From: Candidatus Poribacteria bacterium | GTDB taxonomy: Bacteria; Poribacteria; WGA-4E; WGA-3G | Reading direction: 5' to 3' | Length of the DNA stretch: 64,000 nt | Assembly (NCBI GenBank): GCA_022820835.1 | Contig: JAJEET010000008.1 | Coordinates: 1 to 64,000, forward strand | In this document: positions 8,274-61,614 of the stretch, one piece after another | Position numbering within the stretch: position 1 is the stretch's first letter | How the letters are laid out: each line of letters begins with the position of its first letter | The notes under the pieces: generated by a model | Databases searched by the model: none | What the model was told of the DNA's origin: nothing | Seen by the model: the letters and a program-made list of their open reading frames with translations, nothing else | Translations under genes and position numbers: made by a program

Positions 8274-9053
8274 ATGATTCAGGTTTCAAATCTCACGAAA
8301 AAATATGGACAAAACACGGCAGTTGATGACATTAGTTTTGAAATCCAACAAGGCGAAATCGTCGGCTATCTCGGTCCTAACGGTGCTGGGAAAAGTACGA
8401 CCCTTAAGATGCTGGTTGGTCTACTGCAACCGACTTCCGGTGAAATCTCGGTAGCGGGATATAGTGCCAAAACGGAGCTGCTTGAACTAAAACGGCACAT
8501 CGGATATGTGCCTGAAGAAGCACAACTCTATGAACACCTCTCTTTGGTAGAGCACCTCCAACTAATCGGCAGACTCTATCATTTAGAAGAACGCCTCATC
8601 TCGAAAAAAATAATAGACCTCGCGAAACTGTTTGACATGGAGGCACAGGCGAATCAAAGGATAAGCGGCTTTTCACAAGGGATGCGGCAGAAGTGTATCA
8701 TTATGTCTTCCCTAATGCACAACCCGGATGTCCTGTTTTTAGATGAACCGTTCACCAATCTGGACGTTGGAACGGTAACCTTCATGAAAGCGCTCTTACA
8801 ACGGCTTGCCGATTTAGGAAAAACGATCCTCTATTGCACACACATCCTCGAAGTCGCCGAAACGCTCTGCCCGCGCATTATGATTATCAATTCCGGAAAC
8901 CTCGTCGCCGATGCACCGGTGGAGGAACTACGGCAGCAGACAAATCAGCGTGCCCTCAACGAAATTTTCACGCAGCTGACCGAAACAACAGGAATTGATG
9001 AGAAAACGGAGGATGCAGTTCGAATTGTGATGGGAGACACCCTGGATGCTTGA
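8274..9053 (+). CDS. ABC transporter ATP-binding subunit
   Basis: Single nucleotide-binding domain plus a short tail, 259 residues. Walker A GPNGAGKST is at residues 34-42, the ABC signature is SGFSQGMRQK near 130-139 (F and Q replace the usual consensus), and Walker B VLFLDEP is near 152-158 with the switch His in YCTHIL. The sequence type is that of ABC-2 (CcmA/NatA-like) exporters. AAGGA is 8 bases before the ATG. Its last 8 bases (ATGCTTGA) are also the first bases of the next gene, so ATPase and membrane subunit are tightly coupled. It energises one or more of the three membrane subunits downstream. Confidence 0.92.
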   Translation: MIQVSNLTKKYGQNTAVDDISFEIQQGEIVGYLGPNGAGKSTTLKMLVGLLQPTSGEISVAGYSAKTELLELKRHIGYVPEEAQLYEHLSLVEHLQLIGRLYHLEERLISKKIIDLAKLFDMEAQANQRISGFSQGMRQKCIIMSSLMHNPDVLFLDEPFTNLDVGTVTFMKALLQRLADLGKTILYCTHILEVAETLCPRIMIINSGNLVADAPVEELRQQTNQRALNEIFTQLTETTGIDEKTEDAVRIVMGDTLDA

Positions 9054-10704
9054 CACTTCTAACAGCAAGTTTTCGGCTTGCAAGCTACGCCAAAAAGTTG
9101 TGGCAATGCTCGGTGCCTCGCCAACACAGTACAGGTTGTTGCTAAAAACAGAGAAATTGGTAGACAAGCGAGCTCTTGAAGGCAGAAACGACTTATCCAA
9201 TATGTCGCTTGCTGTGACCTGTGTTATCGGATTTATATTCAGTGTTTTATTTACATTTATGCCATTCGTTTTGCGGATGGACACATTTACCTTCTCGCTT
9301 ATCGGCATCACAATGTCTATGATGATGGTAAGCCTCTGGACAATCCCATACTTTGATATTCTTCTCGCCCCGATAAACTATCCCGTCATCGCACATACGC
9401 CGGTATCATCAAGAACCTATTTTCTCGTAAAGTCGACACAGATCTTCACCTACACCGTGCTGCTCTTAGGCAGTTTGAATTTGATGCCTGCCATCGGCGG
9501 TATCTGGGTTCATAAAGGCGATTTTCCTCTGCTACGGCTCCTTTTTCCTGTTGTTTACGTGCCGATCGTCTATATGTCCGGTCTTTTCACAATCGGCGTA
9601 ATGACAGTTTTCGCTGGATATTTGACAAAACTTTATAGCAAACGCGTACTCCGAAGTATCGCACAATACGCGCAGTTTATAGTACCGGCACTTTTCCCCG
9701 TGACGTGGATACTCCTTTCGCGTCTGATGCCATACATATCAGAAGAGCAATTGGCTTCGCTTCTGAAATGGATCCATGTGCTTCCGAACGGTTGGTTCGC
9801 CGGAACTGTCTCACTGATGCTTGGAGAAAGAGAACTGCGTTTCTTGATTTCAGCAGGACTGACTGTCGTTTCAACGCTGTTTCTGGTATTCGTTCCGCTT
9901 CGGAGTATCGCGCAGAGTTATTCAACGTATCTCTCCTATCTCTTGGAATCCGGGAGTCAGCAAAAGACTAAAATCCGAGTGAAAACGCCGCTACTTGCAA
10001 GAATGTTCCGAAACAGTATTATCCGTGCAGGGTTTTGTCTCTGCGCTGCGTACATGCGCCGCGATAGAACGCTGTTGAAGCAACTTTTCGCTGCACTCGG
10101 AAGTGTTCTTATGCTCATCGTCATGTTTGAACAAGGATGGATGCGGCACGCTTTCGCCATTGGACTCAGCCCAGGTTTCTCTATAATGTTCTATTTCGTG
10201 GGAATCAGCTTCGTTGGTTGCTTCATTTCACCGATAAGATATTCGGAACATTGGAAAGCATCGTGGATGCTAACGCTTGCCCCGCTCCGTACGCCCAATG
10301 ACCTATGGCGAGGCGCGCAGGCAACGGCTTTCGTCTATATGGTTGCGCCGTGTACCCTCCTTATGCTCTGTGTTGCGACCGCTTTTTGGGGTGTTTTAGG
10401 TATATTTTACGTCTTACCGATCGTCATCATTTTAATCAATTTCGTTATTCTTTATCCGAAACCGCTCTCTGGGTTGCCACTCGCCATAGAACTCGTCCAA
10501 AATCAGGCAGCAGGCGAACTTTTTGTGCCTTTTCTATTAAGTATTCTCGTTGTCGGTGTCTTCGTCGGCATCCAATTTCTAACGTATCTGCTGAATATAT
10601 GGGTCTATTACGGTTTCTATTGTATCACAGTTGTAGGTGGTATTATCAGTTGCGTCCATTTTCTACAAAAAAATAGACGAGTGGAGGAAACCGTAAATGC
10701 TTGA
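9046..10704 (+). CDS. ABC-2-like exporter membrane subunit, paralogue 1 of 3
   Basis: Polytopic membrane protein of 552 residues with a cytoplasmic N-terminus. It shares with the next two genes the N-terminal signature MLGASPTQYR.LL.TEKL and the block YFDIL.APINYPVIAHTPVSSRTYF, then about a dozen hydrophobic segments. I do not recognise a named family; assignment as the permease rests on the operon and topology. It has a short N-terminal extension (about 14 residues) missing in the other two copies. It overlaps the ATPase by 8 bases and the next permease by 8 bases, both junctions using the sequence ATGCTTGA. Confidence 0.8.
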   Translation: MLDTSNSKFSACKLRQKVVAMLGASPTQYRLLLKTEKLVDKRALEGRNDLSNMSLAVTCVIGFIFSVLFTFMPFVLRMDTFTFSLIGITMSMMMVSLWTIPYFDILLAPINYPVIAHTPVSSRTYFLVKSTQIFTYTVLLLGSLNLMPAIGGIWVHKGDFPLLRLLFPVVYVPIVYMSGLFTIGVMTVFAGYLTKLYSKRVLRSIAQYAQFIVPALFPVTWILLSRLMPYISEEQLASLLKWIHVLPNGWFAGTVSLMLGERELRFLISAGLTVVSTLFLVFVPLRSIAQSYSTYLSYLLESGSQQKTKIRVKTPLLARMFRNSIIRAGFCLCAAYMRRDRTLLKQLFAALGSVLMLIVMFEQGWMRHAFAIGLSPGFSIMFYFVGISFVGCFISPIRYSEHWKASWMLTLAPLRTPNDLWRGAQATAFVYMVAPCTLLMLCVATAFWGVLGIFYVLPIVIILINFVILYPKPLSGLPLAIELVQNQAAGELFVPFLLSILVVGVFVGIQFLTYLLNIWVYYGFYCITVVGGIISCVHFLQKNRRVEETVNA

Positions 10705-12421
10705 AAAAATCGTAGAAATGCTCGGTGCCTCTCCAACCCAATACAGGTATCTCCTACAGACAGAAAAATTAATGGAGAAGCGGGCACTTGAGGGAAAAAA
10801 CATCTCTGTGAACTTTTCGCTTGCTGCGACTTGGGGTTTCTGTTTTATAATCAGCATCCCACTTACGGCTATACCACTCTTTTTCCCGATAGGCATATTC
10901 TCTTATGCACTTATGGGGATAACCCTGTCTATGATAGTGATAGGCATCGGGATGAACCCATACTTCGACATCCTTCTGAGTCCAATAAACTATCCTGTCA
11001 TTGCTCACACCCCAGTATCATCGCGAACCTACTTTCTCGTAAAACTAACGCAGCTCCTAAAGCATACAATCCCGTTGTTAGCCTGTCTAAATCTGATGCC
11101 TGCTATCGGTGGTATCTGGATTCGCGTGCACGAGTCTTCTCAGTTTCAGTACTTTTTTCCGCTGGTTTACTTGCCTGTCGCCTTCATGTCAGGTTTCTTC
11201 ACAGTTGGTGTGATGACGACATTCGCAGGGTATTGGACAAAACTATACACCAAAAAGACGTTCCGAAATATTGTGCAATACGTCCAGTTTATATTTGCGG
11301 TCTTCTTACCCCTAACGTGCATCCTCCTCTATTACCCATCACCAGATGACTTGATGGATAAATCAACCCTCTATTACCAATCACTAGATGACTTAATGGA
11401 TAAACTAACCGCGACCCTGAAATGGTTCAATGCGCTGCCAAACGCTTGGTTTGCTGGAATAGTTGCACTTGCGCTCGGACAGATAGAACGGTATTTTTTG
11501 ATTGTAGCAGGATTGGCTATCGTTTCGACGCTCTTTTTAGTGTTTGTTCCGCTTCGGAGTATCGCAAAAAGTTATTCAAAATATCTCTCTTACCTGCTGG
11601 AATCTGAAAGTAAACAAACATCTAAACTCCGGGTGAAAACGCCGCTATTTGCGAGAATATTCCGAAACCCTGCCGTTCGTGCAGGGTTTTGCCTCAGTTT
11701 TGTGTACATACGTCGCGATAAAATCTTATTAGGGAACTTCTTGAGTTCACTGGTAACTGCTATTATGTTCACAGTTATTTTTAATCTATCGTCTGGTCAG
11801 ATGTGGGTTGATGATGCCTACCCTATTGGATTCAGTCCAAGTTTTTCTGCGATGTTTTATTCTCTCGGATTCACCATTGTTCCCGCCTTCATGTTCCTTG
11901 TCAAGTATTCGGAGCACTATAAAGCGTCGTGGCTACTAATGCTGGCAGCACCAGGTGACTTATGGCGAGGTGTACAAGCGGCTGCCTGCCTCTATCTTGT
12001 TGCGCCGTGTACGCTCTTGATGCTTTGCATGGCTACGTTTATTTGGGGCACTTTAGGCATACTTTATGTCCTACCGGTATTAATCATTTTACTCAATCTC
12101 GTGATTTTTTACCCTAAACCGCGCGCGAGTCTGCCATTCGCTGAAGAACTCGTCCAAAAACGGTTAAGGCGTGTAGGGTGGATCGCTTCCAAACCGCGCG
12201 CGGGTTTGCCACTCGCTGAAGAACTCATCCAAAAACGGTTAAGGCTTGTGCAGTGGATTGCTCCCATCGGTATGGTCCTTGGGACAGGCTTCGCATTCAT
12301 CCAATTTTTGATTTACATAATTGATATATCGGTTTATTACGGTTTTTATTGTGTTACGGTTGTGGGTGGACTTATCAGTTTTATATGTTTGTTTCAAAAA
12401 GGAAAGCGGAGGAAATCATAG
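10697..12421 (+). CDS. ABC-2-like exporter membrane subunit, paralogue 2 of 3
   Basis: 574-residue paralogue of the flanking genes, with the same N-terminal signature and the same SPINYPVIAHTPVSSRTYF block. It is longer because of two internal tandem duplications found only here: a 14-residue unit near residues 211-238 (LYYPSPDDLMDKST / LYYQSLDDLMDKLT) and a 25-residue unit near 474-523 starting KPRA. Both duplications keep frame and look recent. It starts 8 bases inside the previous gene, and its stop is immediately followed by the ATG of the third copy. All three copies carry the LRSIA.SYS.YLS.LLES cytoplasmic stretch. Confidence 0.8.
   Translation: MLEKIVEMLGASPTQYRYLLQTEKLMEKRALEGKNISVNFSLAATWGFCFIISIPLTAIPLFFPIGIFSYALMGITLSMIVIGIGMNPYFDILLSPINYPVIAHTPVSSRTYFLVKLTQLLKHTIPLLACLNLMPAIGGIWIRVHESSQFQYFFPLVYLPVAFMSGFFTVGVMTTFAGYWTKLYTKKTFRNIVQYVQFIFAVFLPLTCILLYYPSPDDLMDKSTLYYQSLDDLMDKLTATLKWFNALPNAWFAGIVALALGQIERYFLIVAGLAIVSTLFLVFVPLRSIAKSYSKYLSYLLESESKQTSKLRVKTPLFARIFRNPAVRAGFCLSFVYIRRDKILLGNFLSSLVTAIMFTVIFNLSSGQMWVDDAYPIGFSPSFSAMFYSLGFTIVPAFMFLVKYSEHYKASWLLMLAAPGDLWRGVQAAACLYLVAPCTLLMLCMATFIWGTLGILYVLPVLIILLNLVIFYPKPRASLPFAEELVQKRLRRVGWIASKPRAGLPLAEELIQKRLRLVQWIAPIGMVLGTGFAFIQFLIYIIDISVYYGFYCVTVVGGLISFICLFQKGKRRKS
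11327..11410 (+). repeat. In-frame 42-bp tandem duplication
   Basis: Copies 11327-11368 and 11369-11410 (14 codons each) differ at a handful of bases. The unit contains the charged DDLMDK segment, probably in a loop between membrane helices. The sister permeases have one counterpart only. Confidence 0.85.
12116..12265 (+). repeat. In-frame 75-bp tandem duplication
   Basis: Copies 12116-12190 and 12191-12265 (25 codons each) encode a KPRA..LP.AEEL.QKRLR unit. The sister permeases have a single KP.SGLPLA.E.VQ segment at the same place, so this copy duplicated after the gene triplication. Confidence 0.85.
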
Positions 12422-14056
12422 ATGCTTGAGAGAATTGTGGCAATGCTCGGGGCCTCTCCAACACAGTACAGGATCCTCCTAAAAACAGAGAGATTGGTCG
12501 AGAAGCGCGCACTTGAAGGGAAACGCTTTACCAACCTGTCGCTCAGCGTAACGTGTGGACTTTTCTTTATCATGGGGATCTCAATGGCAACTATGCTGCT
12601 TCTCCCCTTAGATGTGTTCACCTACGCGCTTATCAGTATCACGACATCTATGGCACTGATAGGGTTTTGGACGATCCCATACTTTGATATCCTTATCAGT
12701 CCTATAAACTACCCGATTGTAGCACACACGCCGGTGGCATCGCGCACCTATTTTCTTGTGAAACTGACGCAGATACTCACCTACACAGCACTATTATTAC
12801 TCAGCTTGAATCTGCCCCCTGCAGTCGCTGGTATCTGGATTCATGCTCAGGATTCTTCTGAACTCCTATACCTTTTTCCGCTTGCGTACCTGTTTATCGC
12901 TTTCATGTCCGGCTTTTTCACGATTGGCGTGACAACAGTCTTCGCAGGCTATCTGACGAAACTTTATACCAAAAAGAGTCTCCGAAGTATCGCACAATAC
13001 GCGCAATTTACACTACCCGCACTTTTCCCTGTCGTATGGATCCTTCTTCCCCGTTTACCGCTCTCATTATCAGATGGCGGCATAGATAAATTAACCTCAG
13101 TCCTGAAATGGTTCTACGCGCTTCCGAACGGTTGGTTTGCCGGTGCAGTATCGCTTGCGCTCGGAGAAATAGAGGGGCCCAATATTTTGAGAGATATAGT
13201 TTTAACAGGATTGGCTATTGTTTCAACGCTCTTCTTGATACTGGTTCCGCTTCGGAGTATCGCGCAGAGCTATTCGGAATATCTCTCTCACTTATTGGAA
13301 TCCGGAAATCAACAGAAATCTGAGTTGCGGGTGAGAACGCCGCTGTTTGCGAACATGTTCCGAAATTCTGATATACGAGCAGGGTTCTGTCTCAGCACCG
13401 CATATATGTACCGTGATAAACACATCTTACGCCAAGTGCTCAGTTCGTTTGCTGGCATTATTATCATCATCGTCTCATTTACGCACGGTGACGTGTTTTC
13501 TCTCGATTGGATTCAACATGCTTATGCCATCGGCTTAAGTCCGGGTTTCTCTATTATGTTCTGCTTTGTCGGTATAAGCTTTGCTGGCTGCTTTATTTTA
13601 CCTGTCAGATATTCGGAGCACTACAAAGCGTCGTGGATGTTCACGCTTGCCCCACTGCCAGCATCGAGTAACTTGTGGCGTGGTGTGCAGGGAACTGCGC
13701 TCCTCTACATCATTGCCCCGTGTACGTTTGTTATGCTTTGCATCGCTACCGTCATCTGGGGAGCTTCAGGCATATTTTACGTCCTACCGGGCTTAATGAC
13801 GCTACTCTATTACGTCATTTTCTTTCCAAAACCGCGTTCTGGCTTGCCACTCGCTGAAGAATTTGTCCAAAAACGGATGGTTGCCGGAGCTTGGCTCCCT
13901 CTCATCTTTAACATCTTGGCTATTAGCGTTTTCGTCGGCATCCAATATCTAACCTATTTGTTGAATATATGGATCTATTACGCTTTCTATTGCATTGGAG
14001 TTGTTGGCGGATTTATCGGTTTTATCTATCTTTGGATGAAGAGTGATAAAAAATAA
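12422..14056 (+). CDS. ABC-2-like exporter membrane subunit, paralogue 3 of 3
   Basis: 544-residue paralogue with the same N-terminal MLGASPTQYR.LLKTERL signature, the SPINYPIVAHTPVASRTYF block and similar hydropathy. It begins directly after the stop of paralogue 2 (TAG then ATGCTTGAG), so the whole set 8274-14056 reads as one transcription unit of one ATPase and three membrane proteins. Three different permeases may form alternative heterodimers with one ATPase, or one copy may have another role; the sequence does not decide. No recognisable terminator directly follows, and a hairpin-rich region begins about 50 bases downstream. Confidence 0.8.
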   Translation: MLERIVAMLGASPTQYRILLKTERLVEKRALEGKRFTNLSLSVTCGLFFIMGISMATMLLLPLDVFTYALISITTSMALIGFWTIPYFDILISPINYPIVAHTPVASRTYFLVKLTQILTYTALLLLSLNLPPAVAGIWIHAQDSSELLYLFPLAYLFIAFMSGFFTIGVTTVFAGYLTKLYTKKSLRSIAQYAQFTLPALFPVVWILLPRLPLSLSDGGIDKLTSVLKWFYALPNGWFAGAVSLALGEIEGPNILRDIVLTGLAIVSTLFLILVPLRSIAQSYSEYLSHLLESGNQQKSELRVRTPLFANMFRNSDIRAGFCLSTAYMYRDKHILRQVLSSFAGIIIIIVSFTHGDVFSLDWIQHAYAIGLSPGFSIMFCFVGISFAGCFILPVRYSEHYKASWMFTLAPLPASSNLWRGVQGTALLYIIAPCTFVMLCIATVIWGASGIFYVLPGLMTLLYYVIFFPKPRSGLPLAEEFVQKRMVAGAWLPLIFNILAISVFVGIQYLTYLLNIWIYYAFYCIGVVGGFIGFIYLWMKSDKK

Positions 14057-14108
14057 AGGGTGTGTAAATATGCTAACAGTGTTACCCTATCGGGGCGATC
14101 TAAGACAT

Positions 14109-14280
14109 TGCACTCCGCTGAAGTGCATTTATCCCTGACATCTGACACTATAGACATATTACGCCTCTGGCGTGAGGAGACCCTAACTTCTCCAAAAGCC
14201 TCTTTGCTCCAGCGGAGCAATATTGCTTCGCAGTGAGAATAGAAGGGATAGTGCCCGTTTTGCACTCCAGCGGAGTGCAA
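14109..14280. repeat. Cluster of four small palindromes
   Basis: Four hairpins within 172 bases: TGCACT/AGTGCA (14109-14127), ACGCC-TCT-GGCGT (14161-14173), TTGCTCC-AGC-GGAGCAA (14204-14220) and TTGCACTCC-AGC-GGAGTGCAA (14260-14280, 9-bp perfect stem). Three share a CCAGCGG or CCGCTG centre, so they look like one REP-like family. They lie just after the ABC operon and may protect or end its mRNA, though none has a T-run. Confidence 0.65.
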
Positions 14281-14728
14281 TGTCCATAAACCTGTCTGTT
14301 TTGAAAAAAATCTTGGGGAAATAAAAAATAAATTTGCATTTCTACATCATGTATGTTATCATATACATATTAATTTAATTATATTAATAAAGAAAAATGT
14401 AAAAATAACCCTTCACCTACACAAAGGACGACAACCTGAAACGACAGACCCTAACCTATCGCAGAAAAAGTATGACATAGATTTTTGCGTACAAAAAAAA
14501 TTAAAGTGCCTTGAAGATACAACATGAGATTCATATTTTCACGATGGTGAAAAAAGCACCGAAAAAATAGTAGTTTCTAACACAATAGACCCCTAAAAAC
14601 AGCTTTAGAAGGCAATTCTAACATCTGTTCGGGAACCTTAACGGGAGAACACTCCCAACTTTTCATAACTTCTAATGAGATCAAATTGTCCAAACTACTG
14701 AATTATCACATTTAATAAATGTAAAAAA
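14281..14728. other. AT-rich noncoding stretch before the Gp37/Gp68-type gene
   Basis: About 450 bases with no convincing gene. It contains very AT-rich sequence around 14320-14400 and one small hairpin, TTCAC-GATG-GTGAA, near 14538. I could not define a promoter here with confidence. Confidence 0.5.
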
Positions 14729-21395: not shown

Positions 21396-21448
21396 CATTT
21401 CGTATGCAGAATTTACGCGGAATCTGCAGTGAATACGGTTTGAAACTT

Positions 21449-21594
21449 ATACCATTTCTAATTGAAAATGTCTCTTTTTTGCAGCACGATGCACTTCGCA
21501 TCTAGGCGAGTACGCCGCAAAACTTTTAGTTTGTGTCCTGAAAACAACGACCCTAAGAACCGTCTAATGAGACAATAATCTATAGAAATGGTAT
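21449..21594 (-). repeat. TIR-bounded structured repeat, copy A
   Basis: 146-bp element bounded by perfect 12-bp inverted repeats ATACCATTTCTA (21449-21460) and its complement (21583-21594). Read on the minus strand, its centre folds as an outer stem TTTTGC/GCAAAA enclosing hairpin 1 GGCG-TACT-CGCC and hairpin 2 GATGC-GAAGT-GCATC. Copies B (41842) and C (59248) share this fold. No coding capacity; MITE-like. Confidence 0.75.
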
Positions 21595-21655
21595 TACCAA
21601 CGGTACTTGATATGTAGCAAAGATGTGAAAATTGCGTTGAGGCTTAGTGTTTTTG

Positions 21656-29166: not shown

Positions 29167-30339
29167 TTGGAAACACCTACATTCGCGACGCGGATGAGTC
29201 GACTCGGAACAGAATCCGCATTTGAAGTACTTGCCAAAGCCAAGCAACTTGAGGCACAAGGCAAAGACATCATCCATTTAGAAATAGGGCAGCCGGATTT
29301 CCCAACGCCGAGCAATATCATTGAGGCAGCGTACAAAGCGATGAAAGACGGGCATACCGGTTATTGCCCGTCTGCTGGTGTGCCGGCGTTCCGAGAGGTT
29401 GTCGCACAGCATATAACGGAAACACGTGGGGTTACAATACACCCAGACGAAGTCACAGTGACACCTGGTGCCAAACCGATTATCTTCTTCACGATCCTTG
29501 CTTTAATCGACGACGGCGATGAAGTCATTTATCCCGAACCGGGTTTCCCGGTTTACGAGTCTGTTATTGACTTCATCGGTGGAAAAGCGGTGCCGCTTCC
29601 GCTGCGTGAGGAGGTAGATTTCCGGTATCGACTCGAAGACCTTGTGGACGCTATCTCTGACCGAACGAAACTACTGATTCTCAACTCACCTCAGAACCCG
29701 ACAGGCGGCACACTTACCGCAGAAGACCTCGAAGCAATCGCTGAACTCGCACAAAAACACAACTTTTATCTCCTGACAGACGAAGTCTATTCCCGTATCC
29801 TTTATGAAGGTCAACATCACAGCGTTCTCAGCCTCCCCGGTATGAAGGAACGGACGATTTTGATCGAAGGTCATTCTAAAACCTATGCGATGACCGGATG
29901 GCGGTTGGGGTACGGTATTGCACCACAAGCAATTGCCGATAAAATCACACAGTTAACGATCAACTCGAACTCCTGCACTGCTACCTTCACACAACTTGCA
30001 GGAATAGAAGCACTCATAGGACCCCAAACCTTCGTTGATGAAATGGTTGCGGAATTTCAAGTACGGCGCGACGCTATTGTGGAGGGACTGAACGCGATTG
30101 ACGGAATCAGCTGTATCAAACCGCTCGGTTCATTTTATGTGTTTCCGAATGTGACGCAATTACCGCTTTCGTGCGAAGCACTTGCCGATTACATTATGGA
30201 AGAGGCAGATGTCGCACTTTTACCCGGAACCGCCTTCGGTAAGTATGGCGATGGATACCTTCGACTCTCGTACGCCAATTCGTTAAAAAATATACAAGAG
30301 GCATTAGGTAGAATCGAAACGGCTATCTCCAAATTGTAG
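29167..30339 (+). CDS. Class I/II PLP-dependent aminotransferase (aspartate aminotransferase family)
   Basis: 390 residues starting at TTG 29167, with GGAGGT 6 bases upstream and no nearby ATG. Family motifs: IGQPDFPTP, GYCPSAGVPAFRE, SPQNPTGG (substrate carboxylate binding), TDEVYSRI with the cofactor-binding Asp and Tyr, and SKTYAMTGWRLGY with the Schiff-base Lys. C-terminal LPGTAFGKYGDGYLRLSYA has the conserved Arg. It is cytoplasmic and transfers amino groups between an amino acid (Asp, Ala or aromatic) and 2-oxoglutarate. Homoserine kinase lies 460 bases downstream, so a role in aspartate-family amino acids is plausible. Confidence 0.9.
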   Translation: METPTFATRMSRLGTESAFEVLAKAKQLEAQGKDIIHLEIGQPDFPTPSNIIEAAYKAMKDGHTGYCPSAGVPAFREVVAQHITETRGVTIHPDEVTVTPGAKPIIFFTILALIDDGDEVIYPEPGFPVYESVIDFIGGKAVPLPLREEVDFRYRLEDLVDAISDRTKLLILNSPQNPTGGTLTAEDLEAIAELAQKHNFYLLTDEVYSRILYEGQHHSVLSLPGMKERTILIEGHSKTYAMTGWRLGYGIAPQAIADKITQLTINSNSCTATFTQLAGIEALIGPQTFVDEMVAEFQVRRDAIVEGLNAIDGISCIKPLGSFYVFPNVTQLPLSCEALADYIMEEADVALLPGTAFGKYGDGYLRLSYANSLKNIQEALGRIETAISKL

Positions 30340-30351
30340 CTTTAAAAGTTT

Positions 30352-30403
30352 TGACTAACAACTCGCGCCTTAGCACAAATATTTGTAGACGAGTTGTTGG
30401 TCA
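30352..30403 (+). terminator. Long hairpin after the aminotransferase gene
   Basis: TGACTAACAACTCG (30352-30365) pairs with CGAGTTGTTGGTCA (30390-30403), 14 bp with one G-U, loop of 24 bases, starting 13 bases after the stop. No long T-run follows, so intrinsic termination is uncertain. Confidence 0.5.
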
Positions 30404-30790
30404 AGTCTTCAGTACGATTTTTCTGCGAAAAATCTTTCAGTTTTAAGGGTTGTCAGTTTTCAGTACGGTTTTCTACGAAAACCTTTCAGTTTTAATAGTT
30501 TTCAGTACGGTTTTCTACGAAAACCTTTCAGTTATCAGTACTCAGTTAATACCTTGTGGCAATCAACGGTTTGGTGACCGCCACAAATAATCTCTTTCAC
30601 TGACAACTGAAAGCGCAGCGTACTGATAACTGATAACCAGTACTCTGATAACCGATAACCGAAAGGAATCGGACCCGATTCCGTACTGATAACTATTCCC
30701 TCTGACAACTGAAAGCGTAGCGTACTGAGTACTGATAACTAATTCCCTGAAAGCGTAGCGTACTGAGTACTAATAACTAATTCAATAGGA
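30404..30790. repeat. Intergenic array of short degenerate repeats
   Basis: About 390 noncoding bases built from three motifs. First, TCAGTACGGTTTTCTACGAA/AACCTTTCAGTT occurs two to three times between 30410 and 30535. Second, ACTGATAACTGATAACC-type units lie around 30600-30690. Third, two copies of CTGAAAGCGTAGCGTACTGA end at the thrB leader. The spacing is irregular and there are no unique spacers, so it is not CRISPR. Confidence 0.7.
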
Positions 30791-41790: not shown

Positions 41791-41841
41791 ATCTTTGATA
41801 GCCAGAATCAGGATTCTCCGGATTTACAGGATAAGCCTCTT

Positions 41842-42011
41842 ACACCATTTCTAAATAAACGCTTGTCATTAATAAAAATCTGGCTCGTAGTAGGGCAATT
41901 TTGCGGTGTACTCACCCAAATGCGAAGTGCATTATTGCCCGTCTTACATGCGGATGTCCCATAGCGTTTCAAAATCTCTATAATGCAGCTTTATTTTTTT
42001 AGATTTGGTAT
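41842..42011 (+). repeat. TIR-bounded structured repeat, copy B
   Basis: 170 bp, left end ACACCATTTCTA (41842-41853), right end TAGATTTGGTAT (42000-42011), near-matches to the ends of copy A. Central fold 41893-41940: outer stem GGGCAAT/ATTGCCC, hairpin 1 GGTG-TACT-CACC, hairpin 2 AATGC-GAAGT-GCATT. Hairpin 1 covaries with GGCG/CGCC in copies A and C. It is followed by ACTGGTAACTGACAACTGAT repeats up to 42046. Confidence 0.75.
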
Positions 42012-42047
42012 TAACTGGTAACTGGTAACTGACAACTGATAACTATT

Positions 42048-59216: not shown

Positions 59217-59247
59217 TATAGTTTTCAGTTATCAGTTATCGGTTGTC

Positions 59248-59416
59248 ATACCATTTCTAAAAGTTTATATTCCGTTAACTGTACACCGTCCACCCAGGGC
59301 CGGTAGGTTCGGTTTTGCGGCGTACACGCCCAGATGCGATCTGCATCCCTAACCGAACCGGGCATAGTTCAAAAATAGCGGCACTTTTAAGACGAATCGT
59401 CAATTAGAATTGGTAT
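59248..59416 (+). repeat. TIR-bounded structured repeat, copy C
   Basis: 169 bp, left ATACCATTTCTA (59248-59259), right TAGAATTGGTAT (59405-59416). Central fold 59306-59359: outer stem GGTTCGGTT/AACCGAACC (9 bp), hairpin 1 GGCG-TACA-CGCC, hairpin 2 GATGC-GATCT-GCATC. Copies A and B have unrelated outer-stem sequences that also pair. It fills most of the 300-base gap between nadK and recN. Confidence 0.75.
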
Positions 59417-59519
59417 CAGAAAGGGATGTCTCGCTTCCTTCAACTGTCAATTTGACTGAATATGAAAATAGTAGCACAAATCAATAATCAAAACTGAATT
59501 ATTCTTACACTGAATAGCA

Positions 59520-61515: not shown

Positions 61516-61580
61516 TTTTAGGTTGTCATTTTTCGGTTATCCGTTTGTGGCGGTAACAACCTTTTCACCTACCACACGCT

Positions 61581-61614
61581 TAACTGAAGACTGATAACTG
61601 ATAACTGACAACTG
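61581..61614. repeat. ACTGATAACTG tandem repeat before the DUF368 gene
   Basis: Three to four tandem ACTGATAACTGA-like units between the GT2 and DUF368 genes. Similar units occur at 30.6, 42.0, 48.8, 52.8, 59.2 and 60.4 kb. Confidence 0.6.

Follow-up and report, generated by a model that had tools for sequence, protein, structure and literature searches.

The centre shared by three short repeats in the DNA analysed here (the window, 64,000 nt, part of contig C53 of a 5.43-Mb genome) is likely to be a non-autonomous mini-element of 32 nt that invades the hairpins of REP-type repeats, probably as single-stranded DNA and through an enzyme of the Y1/HUH type. This module has constant ends, is absent without trace from seamless empty sites in unrelated hosts, is repeatedly present or absent within one family of miniature inverted-repeat elements (MITEs), and occurs inserted into copies of itself.

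The three repeats, designated A, B and C, are MITE-like as had been proposed in the initial annotation: they are short and non-coding, lie between larger open reading frames, carry terminal inverted repeats (TIRs) and target site duplications, and have family copies elsewhere. Element A (21447-21596) is bounded by the duplication TTA (21447-21449, 21594-21596) and the TIRs TACCATTTCTA (21450-21460, 21583-21593); element B (41840-42013) by TTA (41840-41842, 42011-42013) and the TIRs CACCATTTCTA (41843-41853) and TAGATTTGGTA (42000-42010); element C (59246-59418) by TCA (59246-59248, 59416-59418) and the TIRs TACCATTTCTA (59249-59259) and TAGAATTGGTA (59405-59415). The near-identical inverted ends were correctly recognized before (21449-21460/21583-21594, 41842-41853/42000-42011 and 59248-59259/59405-59416), and the 3-bp duplications, read from the sequence, had been missed; these duplications confirm A, B and C as transposed units, that is, MITEs. 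Judged by sequence comparison they are three separate MITE families having only the end sequences (a TACCATTTCTA-like TIR) in common, and outside these ends and the 32-nt module the elements are unrelated. Similarity limited to the ends had been named as the observation that would speak against a conserved folded element; for the MITEs it is very nearly what was found, the exception being the module.

Within the same genome all facing pairs of exact TACCATTTCTA ends at short range are about 110-145 bp apart, and no gene-sized pair of exact TACCATTTCTA ends was seen. Another MITE, about 112 bp long and with TACCATTTCTA at its ends, is present there at C12:9188-9299, C12:13698-13810, C16:11040-11151, C26:6773-6884 and C148:13554-13665. 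The genes flanking the locus of B have conserved counterparts in about 18 other genomes of the genus, where no match was found to cover the MITE at the orthologous intergenic place. Other repeats of the window include a 24-bp inverted repeat at 14104-14284 (GACATTGCACTCCGCTGAAGTGCA/TGCACTCCAGCGGAGTGCAATGTC, 133 nt between the arms), possibly another MITE; three adjacent paralogous ORFs at 9046-14056 (552, 574 and 544 aa), which share 60-76% DNA identity over parts of their length, with a 75-bp tandem duplication in the middle ORF at 12116-12265; and runs of a degenerate AACTGATAACTGACAACTG repeat between genes at 30334-30788, 42014-42038, 59218-59245 and 61576-61614, which are also found elsewhere in the genome.

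The common centre of A, B and C was confirmed, with copy A in the opposite orientation. The part common to all three is TTYTGCGGYGTACWCRCCCARATGCGANNTGCATY, and each contains, within a palindrome, the 32-nt module TGCGGYGTACWCRCCCARATGCGANNTGCATY: in A at 21488-21519 on the minus strand (TGCGGCGTACTCGCCTAGATGCGAAGTGCATC; hairpin 1 at 21503-21519, hairpin 2 at 21488-21502), in B at 41902-41933 on the plus strand (TGCGGTGTACTCACCCAAATGCGAAGTGCATT) and in C at 59316-59347 on the plus strand (TGCGGCGTACACGCCCAGATGCGATCTGCATC). Comparison of filled and empty hosts sets its extent at 32 nt, TGCGG...GCATY, or 31 nt in the AAGC/GCTT subtype. The module folds as two abutting hairpins, hairpin 1 being TG-(C)-GGCG-TACT-CGCC-CA with one bulged C and hairpin 2 being RATGC-GANNT-GCATY. 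The exchange of GGCG/CGCC for GGTG/CACC described earlier in hairpin 1 is real and general: among 74 distinct sequences the third pair is CG in 49, TA in 15 and TG in six. Over nine pairs in 31 distinct sequences 93% of the cells are paired, and the covariation score is 0.205 against 0.114 for shuffled alignments, a value reached by none of 500 shuffles and compared with at most 0.120 for slid versions. Most hairpin pairs hardly vary, and in the 74 sequences the changes lie at three pairs (CG/TA/TG, AT/GC and TA/AT). Loop-loop kissing between TACT and GAAGT was ruled out, as TACT also occurs together with GATCT, GACCT and GACGT.

The compensating changes in hairpins 1 and 2 make selection on the folded strand plausible, and to this extent the argument of the initial annotation holds; it fails for the outer stem, which had been counted as a third covarying helix. 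The pairs TTTTGC/GCAAAA, GGGCAAT/ATTGCCC and GGTTCGGTT/AACCGAACC were traced to three unrelated host hairpins, all of which have been found elsewhere without the shared centre. The host of B, termed REP-b (41887-41940, plus strand), has a GTAG tag at 41887-41890 and the arms GGGCAAT (41893-41899) and ATTGCCC (41934-41940), and its empty form GTAGTAGGGCAATTNATTGCCC, with the pattern GTAGTAGGGCAATT(N)ATTGCCC, is present in ten copies in the same genome. The host of C, REP-a (59303-59359, plus strand), has GTAG at 59303-59306 and the arms GGTTCGGTT (59306-59314) and AACCGAACC (59351-59359); 41 empty copies of it (GGTAGGTTCGGTTnnnnAACCGAACC, i.e. GGTAGGTTCGGTT(TCCT)AACCGAACC, and close variants) have been found in the genome. 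Both hairpins thus bear the tag that marks GTAG REPs. A third palindrome, CACAAACTnnnAGTTTGTG, serves as the host in A; it too is known from elsewhere without the centre. It occupies 21485-21535, where CAC (21485-21487) and AAACT (21520-21524), split by the module, face AGTTTGTG (21528-21535), and it is accompanied by a GTAG-like tag, GCAG, at 21481-21484; TTTTGC/GCAAAA is probably not the stem of this host. Its empty form is the palindrome CACAAACTtttAGTTTGTG, seen as GGCACAAACTGGGAAGTTT^GTGCTAC (^ marks the insertion point) in L122 and others. The module lies inside REP-type palindromes which lie inside three MITEs, so the loci of the window are nested insertions, and differences in the stems of copies residing in different hosts should not be taken as covariation.

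Nor is the centre an integral part of the MITEs, as had been assumed; it is a separate module, present or absent at one exact point of the same MITE families. In all three families some siblings contain the module and others lack it, with the junction at one and the same base. The alignment of the A family comprises filled copies (L006, L010, L014 and L025) and one empty sibling, L149, whose gap falls exactly at the module point. In the C family L008, L023 and L185 are filled, L343 and L335 carry versions of 53 and 98 nt, respectively, and L064, L071, L143 and L209 are empty. The B family (the window copy and L380-L407) includes 28 complete copies, of which 16 are empty and 12 filled at the same base, 11 of the latter with 32 nt and one with 53 nt; L407, with an incomplete right end and counted outside the 28, also carries the module. 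On a tree of the 28 copies built with the insert left out, the filled or empty state requires five changes (5-6 in bootstrap replicates), and the well supported branches by themselves force at least two.

These observations bear on the view of the initial annotation that ordinary MITEs keep a three-stem central fold because it is selected for a function as RNA or DNA. The compensating changes in the two hairpins and the position of A, B and C between larger ORFs agree with it, but sibling MITEs lack the centre at precisely this point, it occurs in many hosts other than these MITEs, the outer stems belong to different hosts, and a scan of the window against Rfam 15 gave no match at the gathering threshold. 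We therefore consider this explanation very unlikely and, for the MITE as a unit, largely refuted.

The same seamless junctions have been found in further hosts. Empty sites include GGTTCGGTTT^CCTAACC, GGGCAATTC^ATTGCCC, GTGCGATTC^ATCGCAC, AGTTT^GTGCTAC, GATT^CAGACA, CATTT^CATTACG and GTCCAATTT^TGGAC, and such sites are also known for the host types F4, F5 and F6; no target duplication made by the module was seen in any comparison of filled and empty hosts. The empty forms of unrelated families are intact palindromes that have loops of their own (TTTCCTAA, TTTGCAA, TTCATT) and retain nothing of the module. This is hard to reconcile with a scheme in which REPs were originally filled and the empty hairpins arose by deletion of the tip. 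The B-family members near the midpoint root, itself uncertain, are filled, which speaks for that scheme; yet the module is limited to one genus and one relative, whereas GTAG REPs and their RAYT genes are widespread in bacteria (PMC3733652), and we regard the scheme as scarcely credible.

More weight is due to the possibility that the module does not itself transpose and is passed from one REP hairpin to another solely by recombination, gene conversion or template switching. Filled forms have clearly spread together with their host, as many host copies are almost the same in sequence, and part of the presence/absence pattern, that of the B family included, could be due to gene conversion between REPs with and without the module. 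However, GGTTT^CCTAACC, AATTC^ATTGCC, AGTTT^GTGCTA, GATT^CAGACA and TTTT^GCGG have no common right-hand sequence at which recombination could take place, and in these five hosts the same 31-32 nt start and end at the same base. As a full account such exchange is thus unlikely.

The mobile-element reading is further supported by the target. The module lies in one orientation 3' of the motif CRRTTY^, and most insertions are in the loops of short GTAG-type REP hairpins. In 187 host contexts, which are distinct 14+14-nt sequences and not independent events, T occupies position -2 in all, T position -3 in 178, a purine position -4 in 172 and C position -6 in 137. Many filled copies descend from few insertions, so independent events are far fewer than copies. 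In 94 of the 187 sites (50%) the insertion point falls at the apex of a stem 6 bp or longer, compared with 0.85% of random TTY sites. The other 93 comprise 33 palindromes of the A type, 28 one-armed REPs, 13 sites with a 5-bp apex stem, seven tandem sites, five GATT^CAGACA repeats and seven others. In the A-type (F4) hosts the insertion point is in the stem and not in the loop, and the preference for hairpin tips is accordingly not absolute. It may reflect the single-stranded exposure of the tips or simply survival, since insertions at the tip may leave the REP functional.

Searching with one hairpin without the other uncovered longer relatives in the same hosts and at the same point. They retain the ends TGCGGYGTAC ... 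TGCGANNTGCATY and differ in the interior, and the lengths recorded are 32, 48, 53, 59/60, 65-69, 72, 75-80 and 97-103 nt, a few of the longest versions listed spanning two units. In five of them (L072 1236-1310, L130, L163, L315 and L323) an interior of about 31 nt, TGCCCCCYTGATAAGGGGGGATAAAGGGGGGT, which looks like a repeat unit in its own right, stands in place of CARA between the hairpins. When 22 genomes, 14 of them from the same genus, and loci of Y1 transposases were searched with patterns specific for the ends, no gene was found between the module ends, only versions of 32-103 nt; apparent elements of 286-398 nt in L034, L098 and L195 probably span two neighbouring REPs. The module has also entered its own sequence: in L147, L148 and L152 a 32-nt copy interrupts another at TTTT^GCGG (TTTT, the 32 nt, then GCGGTGTAC), and in L346 a 32-nt copy holds a 53-nt version. 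Such module-in-module copies are hard to account for unless the module moves, and its mobility is well supported.

Among the sponge-associated Poribacteria the module is largely the property of a single genus. The genome of the window contains at least 44 copies with up to three mismatches, against none for the reversed-pattern control, and most of these copies have no MITE ends; many other hosts carry the 32-nt module as well. A genome-wide search with a covariance model, suggested together with the original description, was performed with a model of 35 positions and gave a match in all 36 genomes of the genus that were searched, strong (E <=8e-11) in 35 of them, with only weak matches (E >=5e-6) outside the genus; matches to the centre reached E values of about 1e-24. 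By strict pattern, among 83 genomes of the class, the module was found in 36 of 38 of the same genus, one of 21 from other genera of the family, with five copies, and none of the remaining 24, reversed controls giving none. The matches listed from named genomes are all from Poribacteria, and viral contigs gave no match.

Several of the host hairpins reside beside genes for REP-associated tyrosine transposases (RAYTs). On contig C119 two of the empty REP-a copies lie on both sides of a 190-aa RAYT ORF, REP-b flanks a RAYT gene in L266 and L285, and REP-b and REP-a occur around RAYT ORFs in L266 and L297. Three ORFs score above the cut-off of the NCBIfam model NF047646 (REP-associated tyrosine transposase); one such gene, in L297, is directly adjoined by a filled REP, with empty REPs on its opposite side. 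Near RAYT genes the module has been seen only inside REP hairpins (L262, L266, L287 and L297), and at the Y1 loci scanned no Y1 or RAYT gene was flanked by the module as its own ends. The genus has several families of GTAG REPs, each beside RAYT-like genes of its own (GTAGGTTCGGTT.., GTAGTAGGGCAATT.., GTAGTAGGCACGCTCCG.., GTAGGAGCGAGCTGTGCTCGC, GTAGGAGGGAATTCCGATTCCC and GTAGGGGCGAGGTCCCCTCGCCC; listed from L266, L275, L279, L283, L286, L288, L294 and L298), and near RAYT genes the module was observed only in the GTAGGTTCGGTT and GTAGTAGGGCAATT families.

Elements of the IS200/IS605 group have hairpins at their ends, insert 3' of a short T-rich motif in fixed orientation without target duplication and leave precise empty sites. 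The module likewise has hairpins at both ends, a fixed 5' motif, no target duplication and exact empty sites. Single-stranded transposition by a Y1 enzyme is proposed because of the single orientation, the T-rich motif, the lack of duplication, the perfect empty sites and the end hairpins. We infer that the two hairpins would be bound in trans by a Y1 (HUH) enzyme akin to those of IS200/IS605 elements or to the RAYTs and that the module would move as folded single-stranded DNA; it may be an IS200/IS605- or RAYT-like element reduced to its two end hairpins, and REPs once filled would then spread as units by means of their own RAYT. Unlike IS200/IS605 elements it has its hairpins at the very ends and a minimal length of 32 nt, and no version bearing a transposase was found among the 32-103 nt versions and the Y1 loci scanned. 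Insertion of the IS110 type was ruled out by the lack of a dinucleotide common to both junctions. Single-stranded transposition would be expected to favour the lagging-strand template and so to leave a replication-strand bias; GC skew in the two complete genomes sampled (G005 and G010) revealed no origin or terminus.

Among the closest known systems are the GTAG REPs and REPtrons mobilised by RAYT (TnpA-REP) enzymes, which are also short non-autonomous hairpins in tens of copies, are thought to move as single strands and occupy the same loci as the module (Di Nocera 2013, PMC3733652; NAR 2021, PMC8266576). RAYT recognizes the hairpin, the bulge and GTAG (PMC8266576). REPs of the E. coli type have a bulge, and hairpin 1 of the module has a bulged base; the module differs in having neither GTAG nor CGTC at either consensus end, hence no GTAG REP tag, in consisting of two different hairpins in direct order, in being itself inserted into GTAG REPs and in flanking no RAYT as its own repeat. 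REPINs also place two hairpins in an outer stem (Bertels and Rainey 2011, PMC3116915), and for their clover shape IS200-like recognition has been proposed and excision has been seen (PMC3116915). They are, however, two inverted copies of one REP, whereas the module is 32 nt with two unlike hairpins in a foreign host hairpin. IS1397, ISKpn1, IS621 and ISPpu9 resemble it in using REPs as a preferred, exact insertion point, but these are complete insertion sequences that encode a transposase themselves and belong to IS3, IS110 and other families (PMC1525189); ISPsy8 generates a direct repeat upon insertion (PMC1525189). The GTAG-23 repeat of T. roseum (PMC3733652, section 7) is also a small palindromic repeat within a palindrome, with empty targets present, but in that case a GTAG REP has entered a single type of palindrome, while the module is non-GTAG, has a variable interior and uses many host types.

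In the open-access literature, with few subscription journals covered, no earlier account was found of a module of this sort, whether in the loops of REPs or in Poribacteria, nor of a 32-nt element that lacks GTAG, has constant ends and an exchangeable interior and lies inside GTAG REPs. We suggest, tentatively and with some doubt, that it represents a new class of mobile DNA which transposes in its own right into the loops of other mobile hairpins with an enzyme supplied in trans, a "parasite of parasites" living on REPs, RAYT loci and MITEs. If the mobile-element reading is right, the module would rank with the smallest mobile elements known from the literature and would provide a clear case of a mobile hairpin specialized for entering other mobile hairpins, with exact empty sites available for comparison. 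REP-type repeats move by a mechanism that is still unsettled (PMC3116915, PMC8266576), and the sharp ends, the CRRTTY motif and the dozens of filled and empty copies make the module a directly testable substrate for studying REP movement.
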